Source: Candidatus Aminicenantes bacterium
GTDB lineage: Bacteria > Acidobacteriota > Aminicenantia > UBA2199
NCBI GenBank assembly: GCA_011049425.1
Contig: DSBM01000083.1
Span: forward strand, 1 to 37,002
Reading direction: 5' to 3'
Length of the DNA: 37,002 nucleotides
The notes under the pieces were generated by a model, which saw only the letters and a program-made list of their open reading frames with translations, was not told the DNA's origin and ran no database searches. Made by a program: the position numbers and the translations under genes. This document shows, piece by piece, positions 23-21,084 of this stretch. How positions within the stretch are numbered: the stretch's first letter is position 1; every line of letters begins with the position of its first letter.

Positions 23-410
23 GTACACTGTCTCCTGCCACCTTATTTCAAATCCCAAATTCTAAATCCCAAACAAATTCAAATGACCCAAATCCAAATG
101 ATCCAAAAAAAAAGCGTTACGGTTTCCCTTGCCAATCGCCCCTGGCCACCAGCCCTTTGGGCCTTGAATAAAGAATAAGGAAGAAAGAATAAAAAGGCTC
201 GAGTGCTGCATGATGATCTTGAAAGATCTCCAGGATGCACTCGGAATGAACTGCTTGGGGTCTTGAAAGAACTTGTAGAAGGCAGAAAGTAGAAAAAAGC
301 ATAAACAGGGTTTTTTCCTTATTTTTATTTCGACTTTCGACTTTTATCTTTTCACTTTCCCCGTTTGACTCCCTGACGAACAGGGCGTAAAGTGAAACTT
401 GGAGGTATTC
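23..410. other. Gene-free leader region with degenerate repeats
   Basis: No convincing gene is seen here; the open frames present are low in complexity. From about 47 to 115 the plus strand is almost free of G and is built of imperfect CAAAT/AAATCC units. Positions 32-45 are the exact reverse complement of 28097-28110. Positions 277-302 (AGAAGGCAGAAAGTAGAAAA...) closely match 28217-28251. Positions 329-357 carry repeated GACTTTC/ACTTTTC units that recur at 28261-28282. A nested hairpin lies at 200-243. No promoter for the downstream gene could be chosen with confidence. Confidence 0.6.
200..243. other. Nested inverted repeat, possible structured element
   Basis: The outer arms are CGAGTGC (200-206) and GCACTCG (237-243). 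The inner arms are GATCT (215-219) and AGATC (224-228) around a TGAA loop. The 8-base stretches between inner and outer stems do not pair well, so the fold would be two stems separated by an internal loop. It is about 170 bases upstream of the CGGC-domain gene. Its function is unknown. Confidence 0.35.
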
Positions 411-851
411 ATGCGCATCGGCATCATTATTTGTGGACGTTACCAGACCTGCGGCGGCGGCAAATGCCTGCGCGCCATGCGGGAACGGGTCGGCGGTTTT
501 GCCGTTTACCCCGCCGAAGAATCCCTTGAACTGGTCGGATATTCCTATTGCGGTGATTGCCCCGGCGGCAACGTAGAATACGTCCCCGAGGAGATGAAAC
601 GCAACGGCGCCGAAGCCATCCACCTGGCCACGGGCCTGGTGGTTGGATATCCCCCCTGCCCGCGCCTGCGCCAGTTTAAGCAGTTCATCGAGGCCCGCTA
701 CGAACTTCCCGTGGTGGTGGGCACCCATCCCATTCCGGAAAAGTACATGAAGATCCATGAAAAACTGCCCTTCTGGAAAGCCATGAACATGGATGAACTC
801 GCGGGTCCCCTGATGCAGGAGGACCCTGAAATCCAGGCCGCCTATAACTGA
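411..851 (+). CDS. CGGC-domain protein (putative metal binding)
   Basis: This is a 146-residue cytosolic protein of the CGGC-domain family, small cysteine-rich proteins thought to bind metal but without an established reaction. Conserved-looking cysteines are Cys8, Cys14 and Cys19 in an N-terminal CGRYQTCGGGKC segment, Cys47 and Cys50 in CGDCPGG (the position of the family's CGGC signature), and Cys83 in YPPCPR. There is no signal peptide or membrane segment. The ATG at 411 is chosen because GGAGG sits at 401-405; a TTG at 399 would put the ribosome site inside the gene. It appears monocistronic: 150 bases separate it from the tricorn gene. Family assignment is fairly sure, the biochemical role is not. 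Confidence 0.75.
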   Translation: MRIGIIICGRYQTCGGGKCLRAMRERVGGFAVYPAEESLELVGYSYCGDCPGGNVEYVPEEMKRNGAEAIHLATGLVVGYPPCPRLRQFKQFIEARYELPVVVGTHPIPEKYMKIHEKLPFWKAMNMDELAGPLMQEDPEIQAAYN

Positions 852-930
852 CTCAAAGACAGCGCTGACACTTTACTGCGAACTTTCGAAAATCCGCTTC
901 ATTCCGCAACCTGAACCAACCCGGCCGCTC

Positions 931-951
931 CCCGTATAGAGAATATTCGGG
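931..951. other. Small hairpin between genes
   Basis: CCCG-T-ATA (931-938) can pair with TAT-T-CGGG (944-951) around a 5-base loop, with one T-T mismatch. It lies between the CGGC-domain gene and the tricorn gene. No T-run follows, so it is not a classical intrinsic terminator. It may simply affect mRNA stability. Confidence 0.3.
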
Positions 952-1001
952 CCGCGCAGCCGTTACCGGCAAAACGGATCCAATAACCCCCAGGAGGATG
1001 C

Positions 1002-2963
1002 ATGAAACAATTTATCACTGCCATACTGGTATTCACGCTGGCCGTTTACCTGGCCGCTGAAGACAAAGAAGCGCGATTGCTGCGCACCCCCGACATCAAC
1101 GGGGATCGCATCGTGTTCGCATACGCCGGCGACATCTGGACCGTGCCGGCTGCGGGGGGCAACGCCCGACGCCTCACATCCCACGAGGGCATGGAGATTT
1201 TTCCGCGCATCTCACCGGATGGCAAGTGGATCGCATTTTCCGGCGAGTACTCCGGCTCACGCCAGGTGTACGTGATTCCCGCCGACGGCGGCACGCCCCG
1301 GCAACTCACCTGGTACAACGACGTGGGAATCATGCCTCCGCGCGGCGGTTTCGACCACATCGTGCTGGATTGGACACCCGACAGCCGCCGTATCCTGGTC
1401 CGGGCCAACCGCACCCCCTACGGCAAGCGCATGGGCAAATACTTCCTGGTCAGCGTGGAGGGAGGATTGGAAACACCATTGTCCATCCCGGAAAGCGGCT
1501 TTGGTTCTTTTTCTCCGGATGGACGACAAATCGTTTACACTCCCATCTCGCGCGAATTCCGCACCTGGAAGCGCACCAGGGGCGGCCGCGCCCAGGATAT
1601 CTGGATCTACAACTTGGAAAAGGACTCGGCCCGGCGCCTGACCACATTTGCGGGAACGGACCAGCATCCCTACTGGTTCGGCAATACCATCTACTTCACC
1701 AGTGACCGCAATCTAAGGCTGAACTGGTACGCCCACGACCTGGAAAGCGGCAATACCCGCGAGGTCACCCGCTTCAGCGACAACGACGTATTGTGGCCCT
1801 CCGGCCACAACGGCTTGCTGGCATTTGAGAAGGGCGGACGCATTCATGTCCTGGATACCGCCACTGAAGAAACCCGGGCCGTTTCCGTACGCATTGCCTC
1901 GGATCGACCGCAAACCCTGCCCCGGTTCCGCAATGTCGCTGAATTCGTGTCGCGATTCGGCTACGCCATCTCTCCATCCGGCAAACGGGCGGTTTTCGAC
2001 GCCCGCGGAGATATTTATACCGTGCCCGCGGAAAAAGGCATCACCTATAACCTGACACGTTCCCAGGGTGTGCGGGAAATGTTTCCCGCCTGGTCTCCGG
2101 ATGGAAAAGCCATCGCCTGTATATCGGACCGCACCGGAGATTACGAGATCTTCCTGCTTGATCCGGCTGCCAAAACCCCGCCGCGCCAGTTGACCCGCGA
2201 CCACAAAGTGTGGAAATACCCGCCTTCCTGGTCGCCCGACGGCGCCAGCCTGCTGTTCGCGGACATGAACCGCAAGCTTCAATTGCTTGATGTGGCTTCG
2301 GGTAAAATCACCATAGTGGACCAGGGCGAGCGTGGAGATATTACAGATTGCGCCTGGTCACCCGACGGCAAGTGGATCGCGTATTCCAAGAGCGGTGACA
2401 ATTTTTTGGATTCCCTCTACGTTTACTCTGTGGAAAAGCAAACAAGCCATTTGCTGTTTCATGATGGTTTTGACAACTACGCGCCCGAATTCTCCGCCTG
2501 TGGTCGCTACCTGTTTTTTGTTTCCAAGCGCGATTTCCGCATGAATTTTTCCAACTACGAATTTGATTTCATCTACAACCGGGCGGAACGCATCTATGCC
2601 GTCCCCCTGACCACGGATACCCCGCCCCTGTTCCCGCCGCAAAACGACCGTGAAGTAGATCCGCACCAAAAGAAAGCGTCTGAAGGCAAAAAAAAACCAG
2701 CGAAAAAGCGGAAACGCGCATTGAATTCAACCACCTGGCGGACCGGGTGGTGGTCCTGCCGCTGGATGCCGACAACTACCGGGGCCTGGTGGCCCTTGAA
2801 AACGCGCTGCTCTATACCAAAGGCGACGAATTATTCCATTTTGACCTCGAAAAAAAGCAGGCCAAGGCGGTGCTTAAAGGCATCCAGGGATACGATGTCA
2901 GCCGCGACGGCAAAAAGCTTTTGTACCGGGCAGCCGGCCGGGGTTACGGCATCGTGGAGGTGA
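1002..2963 (+). CDS. Exported tricorn protease, N-terminal part (frameshifted)
   Basis: This is the front part of a tricorn-type peptidase, which in the archaeal prototype trims peptides left by other proteases. AGGAGG at 992-997 precedes the ATG at 1002. Residues 1-20 form a signal peptide, so the enzyme should act outside the cytoplasm. Beta-propeller repeats follow, with many SPDGK-type blades (SPDGKWIAFSG, WSPDGKAIACIS, WSPDGKWIAYS) to about residue 540. A lysine-rich linker (about 556-570) contains an A9 tract at 2688-2696. Past it this frame yields tryptophan-rich sequence unlike the family and stops at 2963. The frame one base back continues the tricorn sequence from about 2697. A single -1 shift would give a protein of about 1083 residues, close to the usual length (about 1070). 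Real coding in this frame therefore probably ends near 2697. Confidence 0.8.
   Translation: MKQFITAILVFTLAVYLAAEDKEARLLRTPDINGDRIVFAYAGDIWTVPAAGGNARRLTSHEGMEIFPRISPDGKWIAFSGEYSGSRQVYVIPADGGTPRQLTWYNDVGIMPPRGGFDHIVLDWTPDSRRILVRANRTPYGKRMGKYFLVSVEGGLETPLSIPESGFGSFSPDGRQIVYTPISREFRTWKRTRGGRAQDIWIYNLEKDSARRLTTFAGTDQHPYWFGNTIYFTSDRNLRLNWYAHDLESGNTREVTRFSDNDVLWPSGHNGLLAFEKGGRIHVLDTATEETRAVSVRIASDRPQTLPRFRNVAEFVSRFGYAISPSGKRAVFDARGDIYTVPAEKGITYNLTRSQGVREMFPAWSPDGKAIACISDRTGDYEIFLLDPAAKTPPRQLTRDHKVWKYPPSWSPDGASLLFADMNRKLQLLDVASGKITIVDQGERGDITDCAWSPDGKWIAYSKSGDNFLDSLYVYSVEKQTSHLLFHDGFDNYAPEFSACGRYLFFVSKRDFRMNFSNYEFDFIYNRAERIYAVPLTTDTPPLFPPQNDREVDPHQKKASEGKKKPAKKRKRALNSTTWRTGWWSCRWMPTTTGAWWPLKTRCSIPKATNYSILTSKKSRPRRCLKASRDTMSAATAKSFCTGQPAGVTASWR
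2688..2696 (+). other. A9 tract at the tricorn frame change
   Basis: Nine consecutive A residues fall in frame as AAA AAA AAA after GGC. The sequence needed for a full-length tricorn protease moves to the -1 frame here. A-AAA-AAA is a classical slippery string and A9 is long enough for RNA-polymerase slippage. A small GCG-GAAA-CGC hairpin (2708-2717) and a 6-bp hairpin (2730-2735 with 2746-2751) follow downstream. A one-base homopolymer undercall in the assembly is the simplest alternative. Confidence 0.6.
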
Positions 2964-4252
2964 AACCGGGACAGAAAAAAGGCGCCGGAAAACTGAACCT
3001 GGAACACCTCAGCATGAAGATTGATCCCCGCAAAGAGTGGCGCCAGACCTTTAACGAGGGCTGGCGCATTTTCCGGGACTGGTTCTACGTGCGCAACATG
3101 CACGGCGTGGACTGGGAAGCAATCCGAGAGAAATACGCTCTCCTGCTGGAACACGTGGCCCATCGCGCCGATCTGGACTATATTTTCGGTGAGATGGTGG
3201 GAGAGCTGAATGCCGGCCACACCTATGTGAACTGGGGGGATTTCAAGCGCGTAAAACGGGTGGATACCGGCCTGCTGGGGGCCGTACTTGCGGCTGATGA
3301 AAAAGCCGGACACTACCGCATCCAGCACATCTTTGCGGGTGAAAACTGGAACGAAGAGACCCGCTCCCCTCTGACCGAGCAGGGCGTGGATATCCGTGAA
3401 GGGGATTACATCATCCGCCTGAACGGTTCCGATGTCAGCCTCAACGACAATCCCTACGCCTTTCTGGAAAATACCGCGGGCCAACGCGTGGAGATCACCG
3501 TTAAAGCCGACCTCAAAGACAAGGATGCCCGCACGTTCTGGATCCGCCCCGTGGTTTCCGAGATCCGGCTCATGTACCTGGATTGGGTTCGTGAGCGCCG
3601 TGAGATGGTGGAACGCCTCTCGGGCGGACGCATCGGCTACATTCATGTGCCGGATACAGCCGTGGACGGCAACCGCGAGTTGTTCAAGGGATTGTACGCG
3701 TTGCGCCACAAGCAAGCCCTGATCATCGACGACCGTTACAACGGCGGCGGCTGGAGCCCGGGCAAGATGATAGAAGCGCTTTCCCGCAACGTGGTGAGTT
3801 ATTGGCACCGCCGCGACCTCAGGCTTCGCCCGGAACCTATGTACGCCCACGACGGCCCCAAGGTCATGCTCATCAACCACTACTCCTCCTCGGGAGGCGA
3901 CAACTTCCCCTACTGGTTTCGCAAACACAAGTTAGGTCCCCTGATCGGCACCCGCACCTGGGGCGGCCTGATCGGATACGGCTGGAGCCCGGGGCTGGTG
4001 GATGGCCCCAGTTTCGCGGTGCCCATGTCGGGAATCGTGGGCACCGACGGTGAGTGGGTGGTGGAAGGCGTGGGCATCCATCCCGATGTGGAAGTCTACG
4101 ACCGCCCGGATGCCGTGGCCAAGGGGAAAGATCCCAGCCTGGAAACCGCGGTGGAGTACCTGCTGAAAGAACTGAAAAAGAACCCTGTCGGGAAGGTAAC
4201 CAATCCTGAGGAGCCCGATCGTTCCGGTTGGTACGAAAAACAAATTCACTGA
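2747..4252 (+). CDS. Tricorn protease, C-terminal catalytic part
   Basis: This frame continues the protease begun at 1002. Tricorn-like coding starts by about 2697 (EFNHLADRVVVLPL), upstream of the first usable GTG at 2747, so the piece is probably not started on its own. In order it holds the end of the propeller, the helical core domain (WRIFRDWFYVRNMHG), a PDZ domain (GVDIREGDYIIRLNG) and an S41-type serine peptidase fold. By comparison with the archaeal enzyme, catalytic elements are the His in GELNAGHTY, the nucleophile Ser in HYSSSGGDNFP and the Glu in VVEGVGIHPD. The serine that precedes the catalytic His in the archaeal prototype is Gly here. No independent ribosome site is visible at 2747. 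If the A9 frameshift is real, this domain would be made only by slippage. Confidence 0.8.
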   Translation: MVVLPLDADNYRGLVALENALLYTKGDELFHFDLEKKQAKAVLKGIQGYDVSRDGKKLLYRAAGRGYGIVEVKPGQKKGAGKLNLEHLSMKIDPRKEWRQTFNEGWRIFRDWFYVRNMHGVDWEAIREKYALLLEHVAHRADLDYIFGEMVGELNAGHTYVNWGDFKRVKRVDTGLLGAVLAADEKAGHYRIQHIFAGENWNEETRSPLTEQGVDIREGDYIIRLNGSDVSLNDNPYAFLENTAGQRVEITVKADLKDKDARTFWIRPVVSEIRLMYLDWVRERREMVERLSGGRIGYIHVPDTAVDGNRELFKGLYALRHKQALIIDDRYNGGGWSPGKMIEALSRNVVSYWHRRDLRLRPEPMYAHDGPKVMLINHYSSSGGDNFPYWFRKHKLGPLIGTRTWGGLIGYGWSPGLVDGPSFAVPMSGIVGTDGEWVVEGVGIHPDVEVYDRPDAVAKGKDPSLETAVEYLLKELKKNPVGKVTNPEEPDRSGWYEKQIH

Positions 4253-4260
4253 AACACCTG

Positions 4261-4290
4261 CGGCGGCGGCGCATTCCCGCGTCGCCGCCG
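4261..4290 (+). terminator. GC-rich hairpin after the tricorn gene
   Basis: The arms 4261-4271 and 4280-4290 pair over 11 bp (GGCGGCGGCG against CGTCGCCGCC, with one G-T pair) around an 8-base loop. It starts 9 bases after the tricorn stop codon. There is no U-tract after the stem, so termination would be factor-dependent, or the stem protects the mRNA 3' end. Confidence 0.5.
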
Positions 4291-4307
4291 GATCTCCCCG
4301 CGGTGTT

Positions 4308-4324
4308 GTTACAATTATGTTACA
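4308..4324 (+). promoter_or_regulatory. GTTACA direct repeat, one helical turn apart
   Basis: GTTACA occurs at 4308-4313 and again at 4319-4324, an 11-base period that places both copies on the same DNA face. It lies 33 bases upstream of the candidate -10 of the efflux operon. That position suits an activator or repressor of the pump, but no regulator gene is adjacent and the site is short enough to be chance. Confidence 0.3.
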
Positions 4325-4356
4325 CTAAAAGCATAACCACGCAGGGTAAAATTTCG

Positions 4357-4362
4357 TATAAT
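4357..4362 (+). promoter_or_regulatory. Candidate -10 box of efflux operon
   Basis: A perfect TATAAT lies 47 bases before the adaptor start codon. No good -35 hexamer is seen at 16-18 bases upstream (the bases there read TAACCA), so if this promoter is used it may need an activator. Confidence 0.4.
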
Positions 4363-4409
4363 TCAGACGAAATCCCGGTGAAATGGAACTTTCCCCACGA
4401 GGAGTCAAT

Positions 4410-5621
4410 ATGAAGCGTGCGTTTATTGTGCCGGCCATCATGGTCCTGTTCTTTTCCGGTTGCGGAAAAGACAAAAACGAGGGTGGAAAAACTTCACCGC
4501 CGCAAGCCAAAAGTGAATCCGCCGCAAAATCCGGCGGCGAAAAAGCGCAAATGCCTTCGCGGCTGCAACAGGCGGTGAAAGAGGGGCGCATCTCCGAAGA
4601 ACAGGCCCGTCAGATCATGGCCCGCCGCGCCGGCGGGGGGGACAAACCGCTGGTGCGGCTGGGCACGGCGGCCCGTGGCGAGATCCGTACGCACCTGGTG
4701 CTAAACGGCACCGTGGAACCGGAGCGCAGCGTGGACGTTTATGCGCGTTTGTCTGCTTACGTGCAAGAGGTGGTGCGCGAAGAGGGCAACCGGGTACGGG
4801 AAAAAGACATCCTCGCCCGCCTGGATGACACCGAAATCCGCATCAGCCACCAGCAGGCCAAAATCCAGTTGGAGCAGGCGCGCCTGACCCTGGAAGAAGA
4901 AAAAAACAACCACCAGCGCAACCAGGAACTCAAGGAAAACGAACTGATCTCCGATATGGACTTCCAGGCATCTGAAGCACGCTACCGCCAGTCCCGCCTT
5001 GAATTCGAAAACAAAACGGAAAACTTCAAGAACCTTGAACTGCAATTGAATTACACGCGCATCCGCGCGCCGGTTTCCGGTTTCGTTACCCAGCGACTCA
5101 TTGAGGTGGGTGACCGGGTCACCGCCAACCAGCACGTGTACACAGTTGAGGACTTTTCTCCCCTTTTAATCCGGGTTTTCGTGCCCGCGGCGGACATCAA
5201 TAAGCTTCAGGCCGGCATGAATGCCGAGATCTCTTCCGACACCCTGCCGGGACGGACCTTTACCGGTCACATCAAGTTAATCAACCCCCGCATCGACGTG
5301 CAATCGGGCACGGTCAAGGTGACCATTGAAGTGAACGACTCCAGCCTCACCCTGAAGCCCGGCATGTTCGTGGAGGTCAACATCGTGACCCGCAGCCGTG
5401 AAGACGCTCTTGTCATCCCCCGCACCGCCGTACTCTACCAGCGCGACCAGGTACTGGTGTTTCGCTTTCGCGAAGGCAAGGCCGTTGCCGCTCCCGTAAG
5501 CGTGGGCGTCACTGAAGACGATCGTGTGGAGATCGTCGAGGGTCTGGAAGAGGGTGACACCATTATCATCCAGGGGGCGGAAATGTTGAAAGACGGTGTT
5601 GAGGTCAGCGTCCTCAAATGA
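4410..5621 (+). CDS. RND efflux periplasmic adaptor, lipoprotein
   Basis: This 403-residue membrane-fusion protein should bridge the inner-membrane RND pumps encoded next to an outer-membrane channel. The ATG at 4410 is chosen because GAGGAG (4399-4404) precedes it and the protein then begins with a lipoprotein signal ending in FFSG-Cys18. A charged linker follows (about 20-75). Next come the barrel-sandwich/lipoyl half-motif (VDVYARLSAYVQEVV), an alpha-helical hairpin (about 150-210), the second lipoyl half (YTRIRAPVSGFVTQR) and beta-barrel and membrane-proximal domains ending near VIVEG-type strands. Its stop overlaps the next start as ATGA, showing translational coupling. No TolC-like channel gene lies nearby. 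Substrates cannot be read from the sequence. Confidence 0.88.
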   Translation: MKRAFIVPAIMVLFFSGCGKDKNEGGKTSPPQAKSESAAKSGGEKAQMPSRLQQAVKEGRISEEQARQIMARRAGGGDKPLVRLGTAARGEIRTHLVLNGTVEPERSVDVYARLSAYVQEVVREEGNRVREKDILARLDDTEIRISHQQAKIQLEQARLTLEEEKNNHQRNQELKENELISDMDFQASEARYRQSRLEFENKTENFKNLELQLNYTRIRAPVSGFVTQRLIEVGDRVTANQHVYTVEDFSPLLIRVFVPAADINKLQAGMNAEISSDTLPGRTFTGHIKLINPRIDVQSGTVKVTIEVNDSSLTLKPGMFVEVNIVTRSREDALVIPRTAVLYQRDQVLVFRFREGKAVAAPVSVGVTEDDRVEIVEGLEEGDTIIIQGAEMLKDGVEVSVLK

Positions 5622-8600
5622 AAATCGTTCATTTCTCTCTTCGCCACCCGGTAACGGTGTTCATGTTCTCCGTGGCCGCCATAATCTTCGGCATGATCTC
5701 TTTCTCCCGCCTCAACCTCAATTTGCTACCCCACATTTCCTATCCGACCCTAACCATCAAAACCGAATACCCCGGGACGGCTCCGGCCGAGATCGAGCAC
5801 ATCATCACCAAACCCGTGGAAGAAGCCGTGGGCGTCGTGGACAACGTGGTCAATATCTCTTCCATCTCGCGGGCGGAAATGTCTGAAGTCACCGTGGAGT
5901 TCGCCTGGCACACCAACATGGACTTCGCCACCTTGAAAGTGCGGGAGAAACTGGACCTGCTCAATTTGCCGGTGGATGCCCGCAAGCCGGTGATCCTGCG
6001 CTACGATCCCAACACCGAGCCCATCGCCAAGTTGGGCATCACCGGAGAACCGGGATTGGGTCGCATCCGTTACCTGGCGGAAACCGACATCAAGCAGGCG
6101 ATTGAAAGCATTGAAGGCGTGGCTTCCTGTTCCATTTCCGGCGGTTTGGAAGACGAGATCCACATCGATCTGGATGAACGCCAACTCAGCCTGCTCAATA
6201 TCTCGGTCGCCCAGGTGGCCCAACGCCTGGCCCAGGAAAACGTCAACCTGTCTGCAGGGATTCTGAAACAGGAGGACAGCCAATACCTGGTGCGCACGGT
6301 CAACGAATTCAAGACCGTGGACGAGATCAACGAAATCATTATCGATAAACGCGACAACATTCCCATCAAACTGGGGAACCTGGCCAAAGTCTTCCGCGGA
6401 TACAAAGAGCGCAAAGTGATTTCCCGCATCAACGGCCGGGAATGCATTGAGGCGGCGGTATACCGTGCGGCGGACGCCAACACCGTCAAGGTGGCGGATG
6501 CCCTGACTGCCCGGCTGAAAAAAGTGGAAAACGACATCCTCAGCCCCCGCGGCCTGGAATACGAACTCATCACCAACCAGGCAAGGTTTATCAAGAGCAC
6601 AATCAACCAGGTGATCAACACCGCCATCATGGGCGGAATCCTGGCCATACTGGTGCTCCTCTACTTCCTGAAAAACCTGCGCACTACCATTATCATCGGC
6701 CTGGCCATTCCCATCTCCGTTATCATCACTTTTTTTCTCATGTTTTCTTTCGACATCACGCTCAACATCATCTCCCTGGGTGGGTTGGCCCTGGGCATCG
6801 GTATGCTGGTGGACAACTCTATCGTGGTACTGGAGTCCATCCAACGCCAACGCGAGCAGGGCAAAGACCTGTACAACGCGGCCCTGACCGGCGCGTCCGA
6901 AGTGGCCAGCGCCGTTACCGCCTCAACCTTTACCACGGTTGCGGTCTTTTTCCCTATTGTATTCGTGGAAGGTGTGGCCGGGCAATTGTTCCGCGACATG
7001 GCCCTGACGGTGACGTTTTCTCTGCTGGCCTCTCTGGTGGTGTCGTTGACCCTGGTGCCCATGCTGTATACCGCCTTGCGGCGAGAAGACTCGAAAGATC
7101 ACATCAACCGCCTTTTCCAGCGTGTTTTCCGTCCTCTGGACCGGGTGTATGAGCGGGCTTTTGCCTGGTACGGACGAATACAGAAACGCTCCCTGTCCCG
7201 GCGCCGCCTGATTCTGTTCACCGTACTCGGCATCTTTTTGTTGTCCATCACGGCCTTCAATTTCATGGGCCAGGAGTTGATCCCCGTGATTTCTCAGGGG
7301 GAATTCCTGGTCAACATCGAATTCACTCCGGGCACTTCGCTGGCGGAAAACACCGAAACCGTGTCCGGAATCACGCGCCGCCTGCAGGATTATTCCGAAG
7401 TGGAAAGCGTTTATGAACTGATGGGTAAAGGCTCCCGGGGCGGTATCTCTTTCCAGGAAGAAAGGGAAAACCTCTCCGAGCTCACCATCCGTCTCAAGCC
7501 GGGCATTCTGGGAAAAAGGGAAGAAGCAGTTATGAACCGGGTACGATCCGAGCTGGATTCCATGCGGGACCTGAAGATAAAAGTCTACCGTCCCCGCCTC
7601 TTCTCTTTCAAGGCGCCGCTGGAGGTGGTCATCTCCGGCAACGACCTGGACGAATTAAAACGGGTTTCGGACGAGCTTGTAGGGAAAATGCGCGGTATTG
7701 AAGGCCTGATCGACATCAAATCCTCCATGGAAGAAGGCTACCCCGAAGTGCAGATCCTGTTCAACCGCGCCGTGCTGGCCTCACAGAACATGACCATCAA
7801 CAGCGTGGGCGAACAGTTGCGGGACAAGATCGAAGGCAACGTGGCCACCCAATTTATTGAGAGTGACCGGGAAGTGGATATCCGGGTGCGCATTTCAGAA
7901 AACTTCCGCGACCAGGTGGAAAAGATCCGCCGCATCCACGTACGCAACGGCCTGGGGCTGAACGTCCCCCTGCGTGCCATCGCCGACGTGCGCATCAGCG
8001 AAGGCCCGGCGGAAATCCGCCGCATGCACCAGCAGAAGGCCGCGGTTGTGACCGCCAATATCTTTGGCATCGACCTGGAAAGCGCCTCTTCGCGCATCAT
8101 GAAAGCCGCGGAATCCATCAACCACCCGGATGACTGCCGCATCCGCCTGGCCGGCCAAAGTCAGGAACGTGACGTGGCTTTCCGTTCCATGGTGTTTGCC
8201 ATCCTGCTGGCGGTATTCCTCGTCTATCTGGTTATGGCATCTCAGTTCGAATCTTTCCGCAAACCCTTTATCATCATGTTTACCATTCCCCTGGGCATTA
8301 TCGGCGTGGTGGCGGCGGGCCTGATCGCGGGAATTTCCATTAATGTCATCGTGCTCATCGGTTTGGTTATCCTGTCGGGAATCATCGTCAACAACGCCAT
8401 CGTGCTGGTGGACTACACCAGCCAACTACAGTCCCGGGGCCTCTCCCGGCGTGAGGCCATCCTGCGGGCCGCCCGCGTTCGCTGGCGCCCCATCCTGATG
8501 ACCACCATTACCACGGTACTGGGCCTGCTGCCCATGGCTCTGGACACCCAAGAGGGCTTTGAAATCCGCATTCCCCTGGCCGTCACCCTGATCGGCGGAC

Positions 8601-8701
8601 TCATCTTCGGCACCTTCCTGACCCTGGTCTTTATCCCTATTGTCTACAGCCTGGTGGTTCCGGATAAACCGGCGCCCTCCCCGGTGGAGGACGCCCGGTG
8701 A
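5618..8701 (+). CDS. RND family efflux transporter, first of a tandem pair
   Basis: This is a 1027-residue inner-membrane proton-driven exporter of the AcrB/MdtB-like RND superfamily, full length for the family. It has a TM helix at the start (FSLRHPVTVFMF), a large periplasmic loop, TM2-6 around residues 330-480, a second periplasmic loop and TM8-12 from about 860. The TM4 motif is GMLVDNSIVVLE, with Asp399 at the place of AcrB Asp407 and Asn400 where AcrB has Asp408. The TM10 motif is IIVNNAIVLVD, with Asn925 where AcrB has Lys940. The start overlaps the adaptor stop and the end overlaps the next RND start as GTGA. The tandem arrangement resembles mdtBC, whose products form a mixed trimer; whether these two do so is inference. 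Confidence 0.9.
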   Translation: MKIVHFSLRHPVTVFMFSVAAIIFGMISFSRLNLNLLPHISYPTLTIKTEYPGTAPAEIEHIITKPVEEAVGVVDNVVNISSISRAEMSEVTVEFAWHTNMDFATLKVREKLDLLNLPVDARKPVILRYDPNTEPIAKLGITGEPGLGRIRYLAETDIKQAIESIEGVASCSISGGLEDEIHIDLDERQLSLLNISVAQVAQRLAQENVNLSAGILKQEDSQYLVRTVNEFKTVDEINEIIIDKRDNIPIKLGNLAKVFRGYKERKVISRINGRECIEAAVYRAADANTVKVADALTARLKKVENDILSPRGLEYELITNQARFIKSTINQVINTAIMGGILAILVLLYFLKNLRTTIIIGLAIPISVIITFFLMFSFDITLNIISLGGLALGIGMLVDNSIVVLESIQRQREQGKDLYNAALTGASEVASAVTASTFTTVAVFFPIVFVEGVAGQLFRDMALTVTFSLLASLVVSLTLVPMLYTALRREDSKDHINRLFQRVFRPLDRVYERAFAWYGRIQKRSLSRRRLILFTVLGIFLLSITAFNFMGQELIPVISQGEFLVNIEFTPGTSLAENTETVSGITRRLQDYSEVESVYELMGKGSRGGISFQEERENLSELTIRLKPGILGKREEAVMNRVRSELDSMRDLKIKVYRPRLFSFKAPLEVVISGNDLDELKRVSDELVGKMRGIEGLIDIKSSMEEGYPEVQILFNRAVLASQNMTINSVGEQLRDKIEGNVATQFIESDREVDIRVRISENFRDQVEKIRRIHVRNGLGLNVPLRAIADVRISEGPAEIRRMHQQKAAVVTANIFGIDLESASSRIMKAAESINHPDDCRIRLAGQSQERDVAFRSMVFAILLAVFLVYLVMASQFESFRKPFIIMFTIPLGIIGVVAAGLIAGISINVIVLIGLVILSGIIVNNAIVLVDYTSQLQSRGLSRREAILRAARVRWRPILMTTITTVLGLLPMALDTQEGFEIRIPLAVTLIGGLIFGTFLTLVFIPIVYSLVVPDKPAPSPVEDAR

Positions 8702-11700
8702 ACCTGCCTCAATTCTCGCTGAAACGCCCGGTAACGGTCGTGGTGGCCATGCTGGTGTTCGTCACCATCGGCATTATCTCCCTGGTGCGCCTGCCCCTGG
8801 AGATGATGCCCGACATCTCTTTCCCGGGACTCATGGTCTGGGTCCCTTACCCTTCCTCTTCGCCGGAAGAGGTGGAACGTACCATCACCCGGCCCCTGGA
8901 AGACATCCTGGCCACCATCAACAACCTCAAGGTCCTGCGCTCCACTTCCCATTCATCCAGCGCGCGCATCCACATGGAGTTCGAAAACGGCACCAACATG
9001 GACCTGGCCTCCATGGAGATCCGTGACAAGGTCGACCAGATCCGCGACAAGCTGCCCGATGATGTCGAACGCATCCAGATCCGGCGCTGGTCTACCTCGG
9101 ATTTCCCCGTCATCTCTTTCAGCCTCACCGTGCCGGGCATGCCCCTGCATACGCTTTACCAGAAGGCCGAGGATATGATCCAGCCCGACCTGGAGCGCAT
9201 CGAAGGCGTGGCCAACGTGGATATCCGCGGCATTCGCAATAAGCAGTTGATGATTCACCTGCACCCCGACGCCTTTTACTCATCAGGCATCAACATCATC
9301 GACCTGGTCTCCACCATCCGCAACAACAACATCAACATCTCGGCCGGCCACCTGGAGGAAGAAAAAGACAGCAGCCGTCGCCGCTACCTGGTCCGGATTC
9401 CCGGCGAACTGAAAGTGGCTGAAGAAATTTCCCGCCTGCCTCTGAACGAAAAGGGGCTGCGCATCCGTGATGTGGCCGACATCACCTACGACTACCCGCG
9501 CAAAGAGTCCTTTTATCGCTTGAACGGTCATGAAGCCATCAGTTTCCGCATCTATCGCGCATCCAACGCCAACGTGGTGGATGTGTGTCAACGGGTGCGT
9601 ACCGTTATGAGAGAGATGGGTTATGACGACGGCCAGTTGGCGGGCCTGCAGACCCTCTATTTTCACGACCAGTCCGAAGAGATCCTGCTAAGCCTGAAAG
9701 ACCTGTCCATCGCCGGACTGATCGGCGGCTTGCTGGCGGTTCTCACGTTGCTCTTCTTTTTGCGCAAACTGCGCAGTACGGTGATTATCGCGGTGGCCAT
9801 TCCCATGGCCCTGGTGTTCACCTTCAGTTTCATGTACCTGTACCGGGCGGTGTTCAACTCTTCCATTTCCATCAACATCATCTCATTAAGCGGCCTGATG
9901 ATGGCCGTGGGCATGCTGGTGGACAACGGCGTGGTGGTGTTGGAAAACATTTTCCGCATGCGCCAGGAAAAGGCACTTGCCCCGGTGGAAGCCGCGGTAC
10001 GCGGCAGCAGTGAAGTGGCCATGGCGGTCACAGCCTCCACCCTGACCACACTGGTTGTGTTCGCCTCCCTGGGTTTCATGTCTTCATCCGGATTCGGTCG
10101 CTGGATGAGTGACTTCGCCCTCACCATCTCCCTGGCACTGATCGCCTCCCTGGTGGTATCCCTGACCTTTATTCCCCTGGCGGGAAGCCGCCTGCTCACC
10201 GGCAAGTCCAAACCCAAGGCGCGCTGGCTGGTTCACGCCACCAACGGGTATGAAAAAGTGGTAAGTTGGACAATCCGCTCATGGAAAACCCGCCTGGTCA
10301 CCGTACTGGCGGCCGCGTCCATTCTGGTTTCCACCTTTGTCATGCTGGCAGGGATCGAGAGGGAGTTCATGCCGGGATCGGAAGAGCGCCAACTGGAATT
10401 GCAGGTGTATATGCCGCGCAGCATCACCCTGGAAGAGATGCAGGCCCTGTTCAACCGCTACGAATCGATCATCGTACGTAACCAGGACAAGTGGGCGGTG
10501 GAAACATTTACCACGGACTATGGTACCGAACGCAGCCGGCGCGGACGGTACCGCGGCGAGGTTTCCATGTACCTGAAAGAAACCGGACCCACAATCGCCG
10601 AACTCAAGGAAACGGTCAAGAGAACCCTGCCCCGCGATGCGGGCATCAGTTTTGAATTCGGCGAGCGCCGCCATCGCGGCGGTGCATCGGGCGGCATGCG
10701 GGTGGAGTTGATCGGGCCGGATTTCACCCGCCTGACCGAGCTGGCTCCCCGGGTCATGGATGCCCTGAGCAAACTCGATATCATCGAAGACGTCACCTCC
10801 GACCTGGAGGGCGGTGACACCCAGTTGCTGGTAACGGTAAATCGCAACCGGGCCGAAAGCTCCGGCGTGGACAGCCGCCGCGTGGCCCGCACCATCCAGA
10901 ACTCGATTTCAGATCGCCCCATCGGCAAATTCAAGACGGAAAACAAGGAAATCGACATCATCCTCAACCTGAGGAACGCGGATACCCTGAGCCAGGACGA
11001 CTTGCGCAACATCGCCCTGCAAACCGGAACCCAACGCATTCCCCTATCCGCGGTCAGCGACTTTTCGTACCGCATGGGATCGATGTCGATTCAAAAGGAA
11101 AACAAAAAATCCCGGCTGAGCATCACCGCCAACGCCAACGTTCAGGGCATGATGCAGTTGTCGGAAACCATTACCGCCGCCATGGCCACAATACCCTTTC
11201 CGGAAGGCTATTCCTGGAGTTTCGGCCGTCGCTGGCAACAATTCCAGGAATCCCAGCAGGGCACCAACCTGGCGATCATCCTGGCCCTGGTGTTTATCTA
11301 CATCATCATGGCCTCCCTGTTTGAGTCTTTTGTCCACCCCTTTACCATCCTGCTCACCGTACCGCTGGCCCTATTCGGCGTAGCCCTGTTTTTCACCCTG
11401 ACCGGCATCACCTTGAACAACACCTCTTACCTTGGGCTGCTGACCCTGTTCGGCATCGTGGTCAACAACGGCATTATTCTCATTGACCACATCCGCACCC
11501 TGCGAAACCAGGGAATGGAGAAGTACCACGCCATCGTGCAGGGCGGCAAGGATCGCATGCGCCCCATTGTCATGACCGCCATTACCACCATTTTCGGGGT
11601 CCTGCCCCTGGCTCTCCCCGCCCTGCTGCCCGGGCTTTTCCCCGGATCCCAGGGGCGGGCGCAGATGTGGGCTCCCATCAGTGTGGCGATCCTGGGCGGA

Positions 11701-11820
11701 CTCACCACTTCCACATTTTTCACCCTCATCATCCTGCCGACCTTCTATGCCATCTTTGATTCCCTCGGCGAATGGATCAAAACCCGTCTGGGCTTTGTTT
11801 CCCGCCAAGCGAGAGTCTGA
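8698..11820 (+). CDS. RND family efflux transporter, second of a tandem pair
   Basis: This is a 1040-residue RND transporter, full length, with the same fold as its neighbour but diverged throughout. GTG at 8698 is the start: GGAGG at 8686-8690 is well spaced and GTGA couples it to the preceding stop. TM1 is in FSLKRPVTVVVAMLV. The TM4 motif is GMLVDNGVVVLE (Asp409, Asn410) and the TM10 motif is GIVVNNGIILID (Asn923, Asn924), so both tandem pumps carry the VDN/VNN form of the proton-relay motifs. The C-terminal part contains a proline/glycine-rich insert between the last two helices (about 966-985) that the first pump lacks. The two pumps share a single adaptor upstream, which suggests they work together or with alternative substrates. 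Confidence 0.9.
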   Translation: MNLPQFSLKRPVTVVVAMLVFVTIGIISLVRLPLEMMPDISFPGLMVWVPYPSSSPEEVERTITRPLEDILATINNLKVLRSTSHSSSARIHMEFENGTNMDLASMEIRDKVDQIRDKLPDDVERIQIRRWSTSDFPVISFSLTVPGMPLHTLYQKAEDMIQPDLERIEGVANVDIRGIRNKQLMIHLHPDAFYSSGINIIDLVSTIRNNNINISAGHLEEEKDSSRRRYLVRIPGELKVAEEISRLPLNEKGLRIRDVADITYDYPRKESFYRLNGHEAISFRIYRASNANVVDVCQRVRTVMREMGYDDGQLAGLQTLYFHDQSEEILLSLKDLSIAGLIGGLLAVLTLLFFLRKLRSTVIIAVAIPMALVFTFSFMYLYRAVFNSSISINIISLSGLMMAVGMLVDNGVVVLENIFRMRQEKALAPVEAAVRGSSEVAMAVTASTLTTLVVFASLGFMSSSGFGRWMSDFALTISLALIASLVVSLTFIPLAGSRLLTGKSKPKARWLVHATNGYEKVVSWTIRSWKTRLVTVLAAASILVSTFVMLAGIEREFMPGSEERQLELQVYMPRSITLEEMQALFNRYESIIVRNQDKWAVETFTTDYGTERSRRGRYRGEVSMYLKETGPTIAELKETVKRTLPRDAGISFEFGERRHRGGASGGMRVELIGPDFTRLTELAPRVMDALSKLDIIEDVTSDLEGGDTQLLVTVNRNRAESSGVDSRRVARTIQNSISDRPIGKFKTENKEIDIILNLRNADTLSQDDLRNIALQTGTQRIPLSAVSDFSYRMGSMSIQKENKKSRLSITANANVQGMMQLSETITAAMATIPFPEGYSWSFGRRWQQFQESQQGTNLAIILALVFIYIIMASLFESFVHPFTILLTVPLALFGVALFFTLTGITLNNTSYLGLLTLFGIVVNNGIILIDHIRTLRNQGMEKYHAIVQGGKDRMRPIVMTAITTIFGVLPLALPALLPGLFPGSQGRAQMWAPISVAILGGLTTSTFFTLIILPTFYAIFDSLGEWIKTRLGFVSRQARV

Positions 11821-11851
11821 GCAGTCGACGGGAAAAAGAATCCGTCCGGGT

Positions 11852-11879
11852 TTGAACCCGTTGGTGAATCTGGTATAAT
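11852..11879 (+). promoter_or_regulatory. Sigma-70-type promoter for the transaldolase operon
   Basis: TTGAAC (11852-11857), a 16-base spacer and a perfect extended -10 TGGTATAAT (hexamer 11874-11879). Transcription should start near 11886, giving a leader of only about 12 bases, just long enough to include GGAGG (11887-11891). It would drive the transaldolase gene and probably the envelope genes after it. Confidence 0.65.
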
Positions 11880-11897
11880 GCGCGCTGGAGGCCATCT

Positions 11898-12542
11898 ATG
11901 AAGATTTTCCTCGACACCGCCAACCTTGACGAGATCCGCCGCGGCCTGGACATGGGCATGGTGGATGGAGTCACCACCAATCCCAGCCTGGTTTCCCGGG
12001 AAAACCGCGAATTCCTGCCGCTGGTGAAAGAGATTTGTGCCCTGGTGCCCGGTCCCGTCTCGGTTGAGGTGACGGCCCTGGACAGCGACGCCATGGTGGA
12101 GGAAGCCCGGCGCTACGCCGATATGGCGGAGAACGTGGTCATCAAGGTTCCCATCAACAGTGAAGGTCTGAAGGTGATCCGGCGCTTGTACGAACTGGGC
12201 ATCCGCACCAATACCACTTTGGTTTTTTCTCCCTCCCAGGCCCTGCTGGCCGCCAAGGCCGGGACTGCCTTCGTTTCGCCCTTCGTGGGACGCATCGACG
12301 ATATCTCCGGCAGCGGCATGGAGCTGGTGGAACAGATCGTACAGATCTTTGGCAACTACGACATCCAGACCGAGGTGATCGTGGCTTCAATCCGCCACCC
12401 CCTGCATTTCGTCCAATCCGCCCTCATCGGTGCCGACATCGCCACCGTGCCCTTCTCCACCCTGGACCGCCTGCTGAACCATCCCCTGACCGATCAAGGC
12501 ATGGCCCGGTTCCTGGAAGACTGGAAAAAGGTTAAAAAATAG
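11898..12542 (+). CDS. tal: Transaldolase (small, TalC/FSA-type subfamily)
   Basis: This 214-residue TIM-barrel enzyme moves a three-carbon dihydroxyacetone unit between sugar phosphates in the non-oxidative pentose phosphate pathway. It is the short form of the family. Visible active-site elements are Asp6 (FLDTAN), Asn28 (TTNPSL), the Schiff-base Lys83 (VIKVP) and Arg132 (GRIDD). Two residues separate transaldolase from fructose-6-phosphate aldolase in this subfamily: Glu57 (aldolases have Gln) and Phe129 in SPFVGR (aldolases have Tyr). Both point to transaldolase. ATG at 11898 follows GGAGG with 6 bases between. The next gene starts 6 bases after its stop, so the two are probably cotranscribed although unrelated in function. 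Confidence 0.88.
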   Translation: MKIFLDTANLDEIRRGLDMGMVDGVTTNPSLVSRENREFLPLVKEICALVPGPVSVEVTALDSDAMVEEARRYADMAENVVIKVPINSEGLKVIRRLYELGIRTNTTLVFSPSQALLAAKAGTAFVSPFVGRIDDISGSGMELVEQIVQIFGNYDIQTEVIVASIRHPLHFVQSALIGADIATVPFSTLDRLLNHPLTDQGMARFLEDWKKVKK

Positions 12543-12548
12543 GACATT

Positions 12549-15500
12549 GTGAGACGTAAACACCGCAGGATCATTGGTTTTTTTTTACCCTCCTGCTGCT
12601 GGTTGGGCTCTATTTCGGCCTGAAAACCGTTGCTTTTCACCAGATCAATCGCCGCCTGACCCGCCCCATCAACTTTTCACAACTCAGCCTGAACCTGTTT
12701 CCTCCGGGAGTTCGCATCCACGGGATTGACTCTCTTCCCGTTTCTCCCGGTTCCCGCATATCATTTAAATCCGCCCGGATCACGATCCCCCTTTCCTCAC
12801 TTTTTTCATCATCCCGACGCATCAACCTGAAAGTGGATTCACCGCGTATCGTAATGGCTCCATCCCCGCAAAAAAGCGCCGCGGACAAAAGCGCGCCCTT
12901 CATGCTCAACCGCGTCAACATCAATAGCGGAAGCTTCAGATTTTCCGCCGGCAAGTACCTGGTGGAATTGCTGAACGTGGATCTCAAATCCTATAAAGTG
13001 GAAGAACAACTGTATTACAGCCTGAAATCCCCCCACATGAAAATCATCTTTCCGTTCAGCAAAGAACTGGTGCGTGTTGAAGGCGATGTGAGCGCCACGA
13101 TTTCTCAACAGGGGCAACGGATCCAAGTCCATCGATTCGCCTGGAACACCGCGGATTTCCAACTGTCAGGGAACGGGCGTTCCTCTCCCAACGGGGGATT
13201 CAAAGTCAACATCGGCTTCCGCGGTTCCGCATTTCATATTCTGGAACCCCTTCTGGGCGCTCTCAGTACCCGCGGCATGGCGTACGCCAACGCAGAGGTG
13301 GCGAGCGGCCCCGATGGTGAATTGTCGATCAACGGTCGGTTTCGTTTCCCGGAAATGGAGGTCAACAAAGAAAGCTTTCGTGCCGTCCGGGGAACCGCGC
13401 AATGGAACAGCCAAAGCAAACGCATCGATGTCAACCTCTCGGCCACAGAAAACGGGCTTCGCGGGCAACTCTACGTCACGAACCGGGAAGAAGCGGTTTA
13501 TCTGAACCTCAGGGATTTCTCGGGCGCCAAGCTGACGCGCATCATTGAAATCTACGACAGTGTCCCCCTCTCCGGTCGCTTGATTGAAGGAGAAATCCGA
13601 ATCAAGGGAAGCAAATACAGCGGACACGTTCAGGTGGACAGGCTTCCGGTCCCCCTGGCGGAATTCAATCCGCGCGGGCCGATCCGGTTTACGTACGATG
13701 GCAGAAAAAAATTCGCCACCTTTGAATCATCCGGATTAGAGACGGACTTCGGCTCCATGGCACTCCAGGGCGAAAGTGACGGCCGTCGGAACCGGCTGCG
13801 ATTGACCGCCCGGGGAACCCTCTCAGATTTCAGCCGGACGGAAAAATACCTGGCATTCTATACCGGCATCTCTTTGAAACCCTGGAAAGTCGCGGGGGGA
13901 CAAGGACGCTTCGACCTCGATCTCAACAAGGTCGGGAAACGGCTCGACTTCGTCAGCCACCTGGAGGTAAACAACACCCGCGCCAACGGCGTCCCGATCC
14001 AAACACTGGCCGGGATCATCAACGGCAAAAACCAAACCGTGAATGGCCGTTTCGATTTCAGCGATCCCCACCTGCAAGGCAGGGCGGAGTTCAGCAGTGA
14101 TAACGATCACCTAAAGATTCGCTTTCCCCGGGTGGATGGCTCCGTGGCCGGGATATTCCGCATCCTGGATCTGGATATCGACCTTGAAGGTGATGGATCG
14201 GGCACTTGTGTGTACAGCCTGAAAAAGGGTGCCGACCTGCCCCGAATCAGTGGGAACTTTTCTTCTCCCCAACTGAACTTCAATGGCATTCCTTTTAACG
14301 ATCTCTCGGGCGCCTTTCAAACCGACACCGAAAGCCTCGAATTAACGAACCTTACCTACCTCTTTATGGAGGGAAAAGGCGCCACGGACCTGACCATTGA
14401 TTACACCCGCCGGGAATACGCATTGGAGGGTTCCTGCACCGGCATCAACATGGAGCGCCTGACCAAAGATCTTTTCGGATACGCCGACGTGAATTTTTCC
14501 GGATCGGGCACGTTCCTGAATGACCCCATCACAGTCGCATTTTCGGTAACCGATTTGCATCTCTCTTTGCAACGCAAGGGAACCCTGGTTGGAACAGCCG
14601 CGATCAGTACTGATTTTTCCGATTTTGCGCTGAAGGCCGAGGGGAAACTGACGCGGATGGAAACCAGTTCACCCTTGAACCTGGAACTCTCACTGCAGAA
14701 CAACCGCATGCAGGGGGACTTCAGAATCCAGTTGCAGGACCTGAACTTTGTCATTCCCTGGAAACACAACCATGGACGGTTGGATATGACGGGTCAGATT
14801 TCCAAACCACCGTCCGGAAAAACCGATATCCGAGGCATCGTCCGCTTCGATGGGACCACGTTTTCCATTCCCAACTTTTCTCATGCCCTGGAAGACTTCC
14901 AGGGATTCATCACATTCGACAACGGCGCCTTCTCACTGCAATCGTTTCGTGCCAGCATGGGCGGCGGGCCGATTGAGGGCAACGGCATGCTTACCCTGAA
15001 GCAGGGTGAAATTCAGAACCTGTTTTTCAGCCTTTCCGGTCGCAACATGACCCTGTATCCCATTGACCGTACGGTGTTTACCATGGATGCCGACCTGACG
15101 TTAAAACAGAGGGACCGAAAACTGCTGGTACAGGGCAATTTGAACTTCAGGGACGGCGTGTGGGAACGGGAAGTGGATGAGGGCATATCGTTTTACACTG
15201 ATCCGGAAACGGATTCGGCGGGATCGGGCCTGATGAAACTGCTGGATTTCGACCTGAAATTAACCGGTAAAGACAACATCCGCATGCACAACTCTTTCGG
15301 CGATATTACAGGCGCACTTAACCTTCATCTCACCGGGACTCCGGATTTCCCCAGGCTGGAAGGATCATTGGAAAGCCGCCGCGGAGAGATTTTTTTCTCC
15401 GACCATAAATTCAACCTACTCAAGGGACGAGTGACCTTCAACAACCGCTTCGTCATTGACCCGGTGATCAACCTGGAATCCGAGACCTTTATCAAAAACT

Positions 15501-15964
15501 ACCGTATCCGTTTCAATATAAAGGGAGTTTCATCCCGCCTGCAACCCGAGTTTCAGTCCTCTCCGCCGCTATCTCAGCAGGACATCCTGGCCCTGCTCTC
15601 TCTGGGTGAGCTTTTCAAGCGCCCCACATCAACGGAAATGAGCTCACAGATCGGCACCACCGGACTGATCACCTCTCAACTCACCGATGAGATTCAGAAA
15701 CGCGCCCGCAAACTCGGCGTCGACCTGGTCATGAAGATCGACCCGGTAATCGCGGGGACCGCCAGGGAGGGAACATCACGCCTGACCGTGGGCACATCGA
15801 TCGCCCAAAACCTCTTGATCGTTTATTCAACCAACATCAGCAGCCTGCGCCAGGAGATTTACTACCTGCAATACCAGTTGTCGCCCGCCATCTCCCTTAT
15901 CGGCATGCGCAACCAGGAAGGAAATTTCAGCATCGATATCCGTTACCGCCGGAGGCGGTATTGA
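12549..15964 (+). CDS. tamB: TamB-like translocation/assembly protein, start frameshifted
   Basis: This is a large AsmA/TamB-family protein: an inner-membrane anchor with a long beta-rich groove across the periplasm, working with TamA in outer-membrane assembly or phospholipid transport. The frame open to 15964 has no ATG/GTG/TTG start between an in-frame stop (12557) and GTG 12833, yet its translation from about 12587 is clearly coding. It gives a hydrophobic anchor (LLLLVGLYFGL) and then TamB-like beta-strand sequence. A GTG at 12549 with AGGA at 12541-12544 starts VRRKHRRIIGF in another frame and meets this one at a T9 tract (12578-12586). One extra T restores a single protein of about 1138 residues. 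The conserved DUF490 C-terminal domain is plain (LSQQDILALLSLGELF; LTVGTSIAQNLLIVYS). Its TGA ends one base before the tamA ATG. The frameshift may be an assembly error. Confidence 0.82.
12578..12586 (+). other. T9 tract at the tamB frame change
   Basis: Nine T residues lie where the start-proximal frame (GTG 12549, positively charged N-terminus) must change by -1 to enter the long tamB frame. With ten T residues the reading becomes IIGFFFTLLLLVGLYFG, a normal signal anchor. It could be an undercalled homopolymer, a phase-variable switch, or a transcriptional-slippage site. Confidence 0.6.
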
Positions 15965-15965
15965 C

Positions 15966-18677: not shown

Positions 18678-19320
18678 ACTTCGCATCATTGTACTGGCGG
18701 CATGGCTCAGCCTTACCTGTCCACTATCCGGCCGCATCCTTACGGTGGACCGCATCGCCGCGGTGGTCAACAACGAAATCATCACCCTTTCCGACATCGA
18801 TCGCGCACTGTTGATCTACCCGTTTTTCCGCGCGCCCCATGAAAGTGAGCGCGACTTCTACCTTCGGGTACTGGAGGACCTGATCCATTACAAAGTCGCC
18901 TGGCTGGAATACCGCGAAGAGATTCAACTGACCGCTGAAGACTACAATCCCCTGCAAACCGCCATTATCCGCAAAGCCGGCTCCCTGCAAAAGGTGATTT
19001 TGCTTTTGGAACGATTCGATATGACCCGGGAGGATTTAAAGCCCTTCATCCGGGAACGGGTCATGTATGAAAAAGTGTTGAAAGACAACTTCCAGATGAA
19101 AATCACCATACCGTTCACCGAAATCGAGGAGTTTTACCGGCAGCAATACCTTCCCGTCCAGAGAAGCCTCAACCTGCCCGCTCGCAGCCTGGTGGATATG
19201 GCTCCCATGATCGAAAAACACCTGCGCACCCTGCAAACGGAAAACCGGGTGTCCGGCTGGCTGGATGAGATCAAAATATCATACCGGGTGGAAAACCGCC
19301 TGGCGTCGGAGGCTCCATGA
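18667..19320 (+). CDS. SurA N-domain-like periplasmic chaperone, no PPIase domain
   Basis: This 217-residue protein has a signal peptide (about 1-23) followed by the SurA N-terminal chaperone signature (VDRIAAVVNNEIITLSDIDR) and helical sequence resembling the SurA core. SurA carries unfolded outer-membrane proteins through the periplasm to the insertion machinery. The parvulin peptidyl-prolyl isomerase domains of full SurA (about 430 residues) are absent; only a short C-terminal part remains. The ATG overlaps the tamA stop by 11 bases and the end overlaps the next ATG as ATGA, so it is translated with them. Position directly after tamA fits a chaperone that feeds this Omp85 protein. Confidence 0.72.
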   Translation: MFSKLRIIVLAAWLSLTCPLSGRILTVDRIAAVVNNEIITLSDIDRALLIYPFFRAPHESERDFYLRVLEDLIHYKVAWLEYREEIQLTAEDYNPLQTAIIRKAGSLQKVILLLERFDMTREDLKPFIRERVMYEKVLKDNFQMKITIPFTEIEEFYRQQYLPVQRSLNLPARSLVDMAPMIEKHLRTLQTENRVSGWLDEIKISYRVENRLASEAP

Positions 19321-20294
19321 CCCTGTTCCAGCATGTCAAAACGCAATGGATTTCGGATTTGAAATCCGGCCAGGCGGTTGAGGCCCCTTTCCGGGTTGTC
19401 CAGATCAGCCGCCGCCACAAAAAGGACGGATCCCTCTTCCTGGCATTGACCCTGATGGACCGAACCGGAAAAATGGACGCCAAGGTGTGGGATCACGTGG
19501 AAAAAGTGGAAAAAGCAATAACCGCCGGAGAAATTTTCACTGTAAGCGGCACAGTGCACGAGTACCATGGCCGCCGGGAGATCCATATCCGGAACGTGCA
19601 GAAAATTTCCGACAACATGGACGTAGACGGCAAAGACTTCAGTGAAAACGCGGCATTTGACGTAGACGCCCGCTTTGACGCCATGATCGCTTTTGTGTCT
19701 CAACGCCTGAAAAACCCCGAATTGAACCATTTGCTGGAAGCATTCTCGCTCAACCACGGCGAAGCATTCAGCCGCCACTACGGCGCACAGAAAATCCATC
19801 ACGCCCGCATCGGCGGCCTGCTGGAACACACCGACTCCATGGTGCGCCTGGCCGCAATGGTAGCGGATCACTATGAATTGGATAGCGACATCATGCTTAT
19901 GGGGGCCCTGCTGCACGACCTGGGCAAATTAAGGGAATTTAGCGCTGAACCCGCGATCCAGGCCACTTTCCAGGGCGGGTTGCTGGGCCATATTGTTATC
20001 AGCCTGGAAATGTTCAACGATCTCTGCCGCCGGGTTCCCGGCATACCTGAAGAAATACGCCTGCACCTGCAACACCTGATCGTTTCCCATCACGGCGAGC
20101 GGGAATTCGGCAGCCCGGAAGTTCCAAAAACCCGGGAAGCCATGGCCCTTCACGCCATTGACCTGCTTGATTCCAAACTGGCCATTTTTCTGGAAGCCTC
20201 CCGGCACGCAATCCCGGACCAGGGGTTTTCCGACTACATACCGGCCATTTCACGCCGGATACTGATCCAGAACCCAGCGGAAGGGGATGACTAA
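19317..20294 (+). CDS. yhaM: YhaM-like 3'-5' exoribonuclease (OB fold + HD domain)
   Basis: This 325-residue protein resembles the YhaM family of metal-dependent 3'-5' exoribonucleases. Residues 15-100 form an OB-fold nucleic-acid-binding domain (FLALTLMDRTGKMDAKVWD; TVSGTVHEYHGRREIHIRN). The HD phosphohydrolase domain follows from about 120, with His162, His171 and the His200-Asp201 dyad (ALLHDLGK) as likely metal ligands and further histidines in HLIVSHHGERE. No signal peptide is present, so it acts in the cytoplasm. It is coupled by ATGA to the chaperone upstream and overlaps the next gene by 8 bases. Its place in an envelope operon has no obvious reason. YhaM is best known in Firmicutes; homologues occur elsewhere. 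Confidence 0.8.
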   Translation: MTLFQHVKTQWISDLKSGQAVEAPFRVVQISRRHKKDGSLFLALTLMDRTGKMDAKVWDHVEKVEKAITAGEIFTVSGTVHEYHGRREIHIRNVQKISDNMDVDGKDFSENAAFDVDARFDAMIAFVSQRLKNPELNHLLEAFSLNHGEAFSRHYGAQKIHHARIGGLLEHTDSMVRLAAMVADHYELDSDIMLMGALLHDLGKLREFSAEPAIQATFQGGLLGHIVISLEMFNDLCRRVPGIPEEIRLHLQHLIVSHHGEREFGSPEVPKTREAMALHAIDLLDSKLAIFLEASRHAIPDQGFSDYIPAISRRILIQNPAEGDD

Positions 20295-21062: not shown

Positions 21063-21084
21063 TCATCTCACCTGGGCGACCCCT

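Follow-up and report, generated by a model that had tools for sequence, protein, structure and literature searches.

Does one enzyme lie behind the two overlapping reading frames found near the start of the DNA studied here, and if so, what has broken it in two? The window, a stretch of 37,002 nucleotides, is the entire contig C83 of a Candidatus Aminicenantes genome (G000; 2.62 Mb in 171 contigs), and the features discussed below lie on its plus strand unless stated otherwise. An ATG at 1002 opens a frame of 653 codons that runs to a stop at 2963, and within it lies a run of exactly nine A's (2688-2696), read as the codons AAA-AAA-AAA at 2688, 2691 and 2694, with an A_AAA_AAA heptamer of the slippery X_XXY_YYZ form in frame at 2690-2696. 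From this tract the -1 frame is open to a TGA ending at 4252, and a -1 slip there is predicted to fuse 565 and 518 residues into a product of 1083 residues, the joined codons of which contain no further stop or frameshift. An earlier note on this DNA had described a propeller-coding frame that reaches the nine A's, an in-frame A-AAA-AAA string, tricorn domains continuing in the -1 frame and a joined product of about 1083 residues, and our analysis bears out each of these points.

The upstream part of the gene (1002-2696) begins with what looks by eye like a Sec-type signal peptide and continues into a propeller region, which matches PF07676 PD40 (E 8.4e-33) and aligns over residues 25-541 with residues 41-549 of tricorn (1n6d; E 1.7e-28). 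The downstream part (2690-4252), read in the -1 frame, encodes the propeller end followed by the C1, PDZ and S41 catalytic domains (Tricorn_C1, PDZ_Tricorn and Peptidase_S41; PF14684, PF14685 and PF03572), and aligns with residues 592-1034 of tricorn (1k32; E 2.3e-54). Read across the frame change, the domain order is that of a tricorn-type S41 protease, and its alignment to tricorn protease (PDB 1k32, 1n6d; family S41) runs the length of the protein, through the propeller region and the C1, PDZ and S41 halves, whereas the Aminicenantes gene differs in its apparent signal peptide and in the one-base break that the assembly places in a Lys-rich linker. In the downstream part AGHTY aligns with TSHSY of tricorn and SSSGGD with AGSDGD, segments that we take to hold the catalytic His and Ser.

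Because the sequence just 3' of the tract aligns with tricorn from residue 592, presumably the end of the second propeller, the unshifted product is predicted to be an incomplete propeller protein that ends inside the propeller region. The earlier note held that without slippage the cell would export a beta-propeller with no catalytic domain; this is right as regards the S41 domains, which lie in the -1 frame, but the propeller would not be a complete one. The 88 codons that the unshifted frame adds before its stop (2697-2963) found no match among the NCBIfam models. The same genome holds two more tricorn-type genes, G000:C36 and G000:C56, both intact, and the first of these (13744-13753, L166) has A8 in the same linker. 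A literature search for tricorn and Aminicenantes together found no paper.

On the sequence evidence we think it very probable that the locus is a single gene for an exported S41 protease of the ordinary tricorn type, a kind common in bacteria, and that it has lost one base in a homopolymer of a fast-evolving interdomain linker. The same-genus comparison consisted of one genome, G001 (Aminicenantes MAG, JAFGNX010000100.1), whose gene is 86% identical to that of the window in DNA and 89% in protein and forms a single open frame of 1104 codons. Where the window reads AAAAAAAAACC, G001 reads AAAAACAAAAAC, with two A5 runs separated by C at the site of the tract, and the window is one base shorter. 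Homologues were found in 60 of the 60 genomes searched (G000 included), as 108 loci of which 21 were merged as duplicates, leaving 87 distinct ones. Since the query was the 3' half alone, broken homologues would be found as readily as intact ones; wherever the frame was readable in the 87 loci, no frame break at the linker was seen. At least 40 open codons precede the linker in 85 of them, and the remaining two, L097 (18 open codons) and L030 (0), are cut by contig ends. Several short open frames among the homologues sit on contigs that end nearby, and in L071 and L107 there is no break at the linker. The comparison with close relatives that had been suggested earlier accordingly gives a sister gene and 87 loci with neither A9 nor a break at this place.

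The linker that holds the tract (2631-2737) is Lys/Glu-rich and hypervariable in length and sequence across the 87 loci. The longest A run in it is 2 in 8 loci, 3 in 3, 4 in 11, 5 in 23, 6 in 29, 7 in 9 and 8 in 4, while a run of nine or more is absent from all 87. Runs of 6-8 are so common in these linkers (42 of the 87 loci) that the site can be called mutable, and the linker of this family is one in which A runs appear and vanish. In the window as a whole there are 11 A8 matches against 3.0 expected. A split gene, the 3' half of which would be translated alone as a second subunit, might start from the GTG that lies in the -1 frame at 2747. We regard this as scarcely conceivable, given that no homologue is split at the linker, that the 3' half is without a signal peptide and would begin inside the propeller region, and that a Shine-Dalgarno-like sequence before 2747 was not seen by eye.

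Both halves of the gene are under purifying selection. Against the sister, omega is 0.090 upstream (521 propeller codons), 0.247 in 36 codons of the linker and 0.124 downstream (504 codons, in the shifted frame), and the replacement and synonymous counts of the two halves do not differ significantly (p 0.25). The shifted 3' half is still under strong purifying selection. With replacements polarised by 31 outgroups, the counts on the window and sister branches are 9:11 upstream and 12:10 downstream (Fisher p 0.76; 35 and 28 replacements unpolarised), and no excess change on the window's branch was found in the polarised replacements. In a crude Poisson model, relaxed selection on the 3' half over at least 10% of the window's branch is disfavoured (P 0.015), and over 5% it is allowed (P 0.19). 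The retained selection and the absence of a branch excess together imply that the break is very young, is not in the organism, or is bypassed. The frame break itself might be taken to mark a decaying pseudogene, yet with 1083 codons otherwise free of stops and frameshifts, omega of about 0.1 in both halves and no excess on this branch, decay is highly improbable.

Could the cell instead use the tract on purpose, making a propeller-only protein beside the full-length one by programmed transcriptional slippage or by a programmed -1 ribosomal frameshift? The in-frame heptamer and a 9-bp hairpin downstream of it would suit such a device. The stimulatory structure of a -1 ribosomal frameshift lies 5-9 nt downstream, whereas the 9-bp stem predicted here (2730-2751, -14.9 kcal/mol) begins 33 nt past the tract, and the stem predicted at 2708-2717 comprises 3 bp (-2.7 kcal/mol). 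The fold 3' of the tract does not stand out (z -1.23; matched by 20 of 200 shuffles), ranks 15 among 128 windows of the gene, and gives way to a different predicted fold in the homologous stretch of the sister. The two hairpins that the earlier note had placed after the tract do exist as predicted stems, but they lend little to recoding, and we do not judge the longer one functional. That the truncated product would stop inside the propeller region also speaks against a programmed event. According to Baranov et al. 2005, in the part of that paper drawn on here (PMC1088944), a 9A run conserved among homologues is a sign of purposeful use; the linker runs of the 87 loci range from 2 to 8. Neither the sister nor any of the 87 distinct loci shows the tract, its length or the break, so the programmed version falls away, and we consider it very improbable. 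Of the two explanations first proposed, the one-base loss is thus borne out by the sister alignment and recoding at a slippery string is not, the nine-A run and the break being absent from the relatives; an evolved recoding signal is neither needed nor seen.

Whether the base was lost in the organism or in the assembly can be approached through the other homopolymers of the genome. Counted on both strands, G000 has 253 A8, 61 A9, 6 A10 and 0 A11 runs, and because the genome holds 61 A9 runs, the run is in itself unremarkable. The flanks of the A9/T9 runs were scored stop to stop by a codon model for which 109 long frames of the window and the retrieved loci served as training set. By this scoring 48 of the 61 runs were not between coding flanks by the criterion used and 13 were; 12 of these lie in one intact frame, and the other, the tricorn tract, splits frames. 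The coincidence of A9 with a frame break is unique to the tricorn tract among the 61 runs. Of the six A10 runs, none has coding sequence on both sides. A10 is scarce in this genome, but the A10/A9 ratio of 0.098 is within the range of 34 relatives (0-0.28) and not significantly below the 0.19 of the pooled family (p 0.13). In alignments of G001 with the window at 410-4894 and 4806-21705 (21.3 kb), no gene has an uncompensated frame-breaking indel other than the one at the tricorn tract. Two pairs of indels compensate each other (19612/19628 and 20584/20589), shifting the frame within a gene for a few codons only, and other gaps fall outside the listed genes.

These controls bear on the first of two explanations for the lost base, namely an assembly or base-call artefact that would have turned ten A's of the organism into nine in the contig. 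A one-base difference in a homopolymer with perfect frame on both sides is consistent with such an undercall, as are the roughly 520 codons downstream of the break, undamaged and with selection intact. The clean 21.3 kb and the 12 of 13 coding runs that keep frame indicate that the assembly is not generally error-prone, and this cleanness elsewhere speaks somewhat against a gross error profile; we would give the artefact a little less than an even chance. Alternatively, the one-base deletion may be real and recent in the strain that was sampled (or the population may be a mixture of A9 and A10) and be tolerated through slippage that restores part of the full-length product, which would make the gene a pseudo-pseudogene as Baranov et al. 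2005 use the term. The frequency of A runs of 6-8 in the linkers of the family is in keeping with a real deletion, whereas the intact G000:C36 and G000:C56 mean that the loss could simply be tolerated, and we put such a slippage-rescued deletion somewhat short of an even chance. As to the loss itself, we would divide our expectation about half and half between an assembly or base-call undercall and a deletion that arose very recently, by replication slippage, in the strain sampled.

Several papers speak for a real deletion of this kind. Slippage is apt to occur at runs of nine A's, and such runs can rescue genes that carry a frameshift (PMC1088944, PMC3017870, PMC5009743). Baranov et al. 2005 (PMC1088944) describe nine as a length prone to slippage in many bacteria and as the one at which a large proportion of genomes show evidence of selection against slippage, and they name a set of frameshifted yet expressed genes pseudo pseudogenes. 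Rockah-Shmuel et al. (PMC3812077) show that, as repeats lengthen, indels form more readily and are more readily bypassed. The genome of Blochmannia vafer shows the same pattern in eight genes with poly(A) frameshifts, four of which were tested and showed no rate acceleration, and its authors refer to earlier work that put full-length transcripts at 30% of the total (PMC3017870).

The tricorn gene resembles the A9 pseudo-pseudogenes in that its frame shifts at nine A's while the rest of it is intact, and in its intact homologues and the selection kept on its 3' part. In the description given for those (PMC1088944), however, a frameshift extends eight A's to nine, whereas the tricorn gene misses one base relative to its sister. 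It shares with the poly(A) frameshifts of Blochmannia and Buchnera, corrected by transcriptional slippage, a single poly(A) indel and the lack of branch acceleration; those genomes, by the same account (PMC3017870), are extremely AT-biased and carry more than 100 coding polyA tracts of at least nine, in contrast to the single case here. Like the A9 of Thermus dnaX, a site of transcriptional slippage (PMC1088944, PMC5009743), the tract has its nine A's in the sense strand, but in dnaX, as the cited parts describe it, the unshifted frame gives the long product, and the long product of the tricorn gene needs the shift. By the standards of this literature, the case is a non-conserved homopolymer frameshift, real or artefactual with about equal probability.

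A run of nine or ten A's is prone to replication slippage, to RNA-polymerase slippage and, less so, to ribosomal slippage, and its length is liable to be miscalled as well. If the DNA truly has nine, RNA-polymerase slippage that inserts A's, together with some -1 ribosomal slippage, would probably yield a share of the 1083-residue enzyme, and the locus would add to the homopolymer frameshifts that slippage makes tolerable, this one found beyond the insect endosymbionts with their AT-rich genomes. It is very improbable that A9 is real and fixed in the species, with slippage of RNA polymerase (or of the ribosome) routinely supplying the full-length tricorn beside the truncated propeller protein as a species-specific dosage device; such a device would then sit in a genome that is not extremely AT-rich. 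The case matters mainly for annotation hygiene, in that automatic gene calling would list a propeller-only protein and, apart from it, an S41 peptidase where the relatives show one enzyme.

Other runs and loci were looked at along the way. The A9 at 22830-22838 (minus strand) was considered as a parallel break and rejected, for it sits where a sigma-factor-like frame comes to its end (KALAKLKKKLL...stop), with an overlapping DnaC-like gene next to it. The frame (22794-23708, minus) overlaps the start of that gene (22087-22794, minus; both named by eye), and the arrangement, with A9 shortly before the stop, has the look of ordinary translational coupling. At 29901 the A9 falls within the N-terminus of an intact frame. 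In L143, L130, L126 and L146 the frame stops soon after an A9, but these appear to be normal ends of genes, with another gene next; none of these was kept as a break. Among the homologues, L024 (G023:C129) has an in-frame TAG where the window protein reads KRTRGG, near locus position 352 (reverse-complemented), and homology persists upstream of it in the same frame, which points to a nonsense codon or a base error. In L068, L087, L094, L098 and L107, loci labelled Planctomycetota or Phycisphaerae, the linker is enlarged by an acidic insert the size of a domain.
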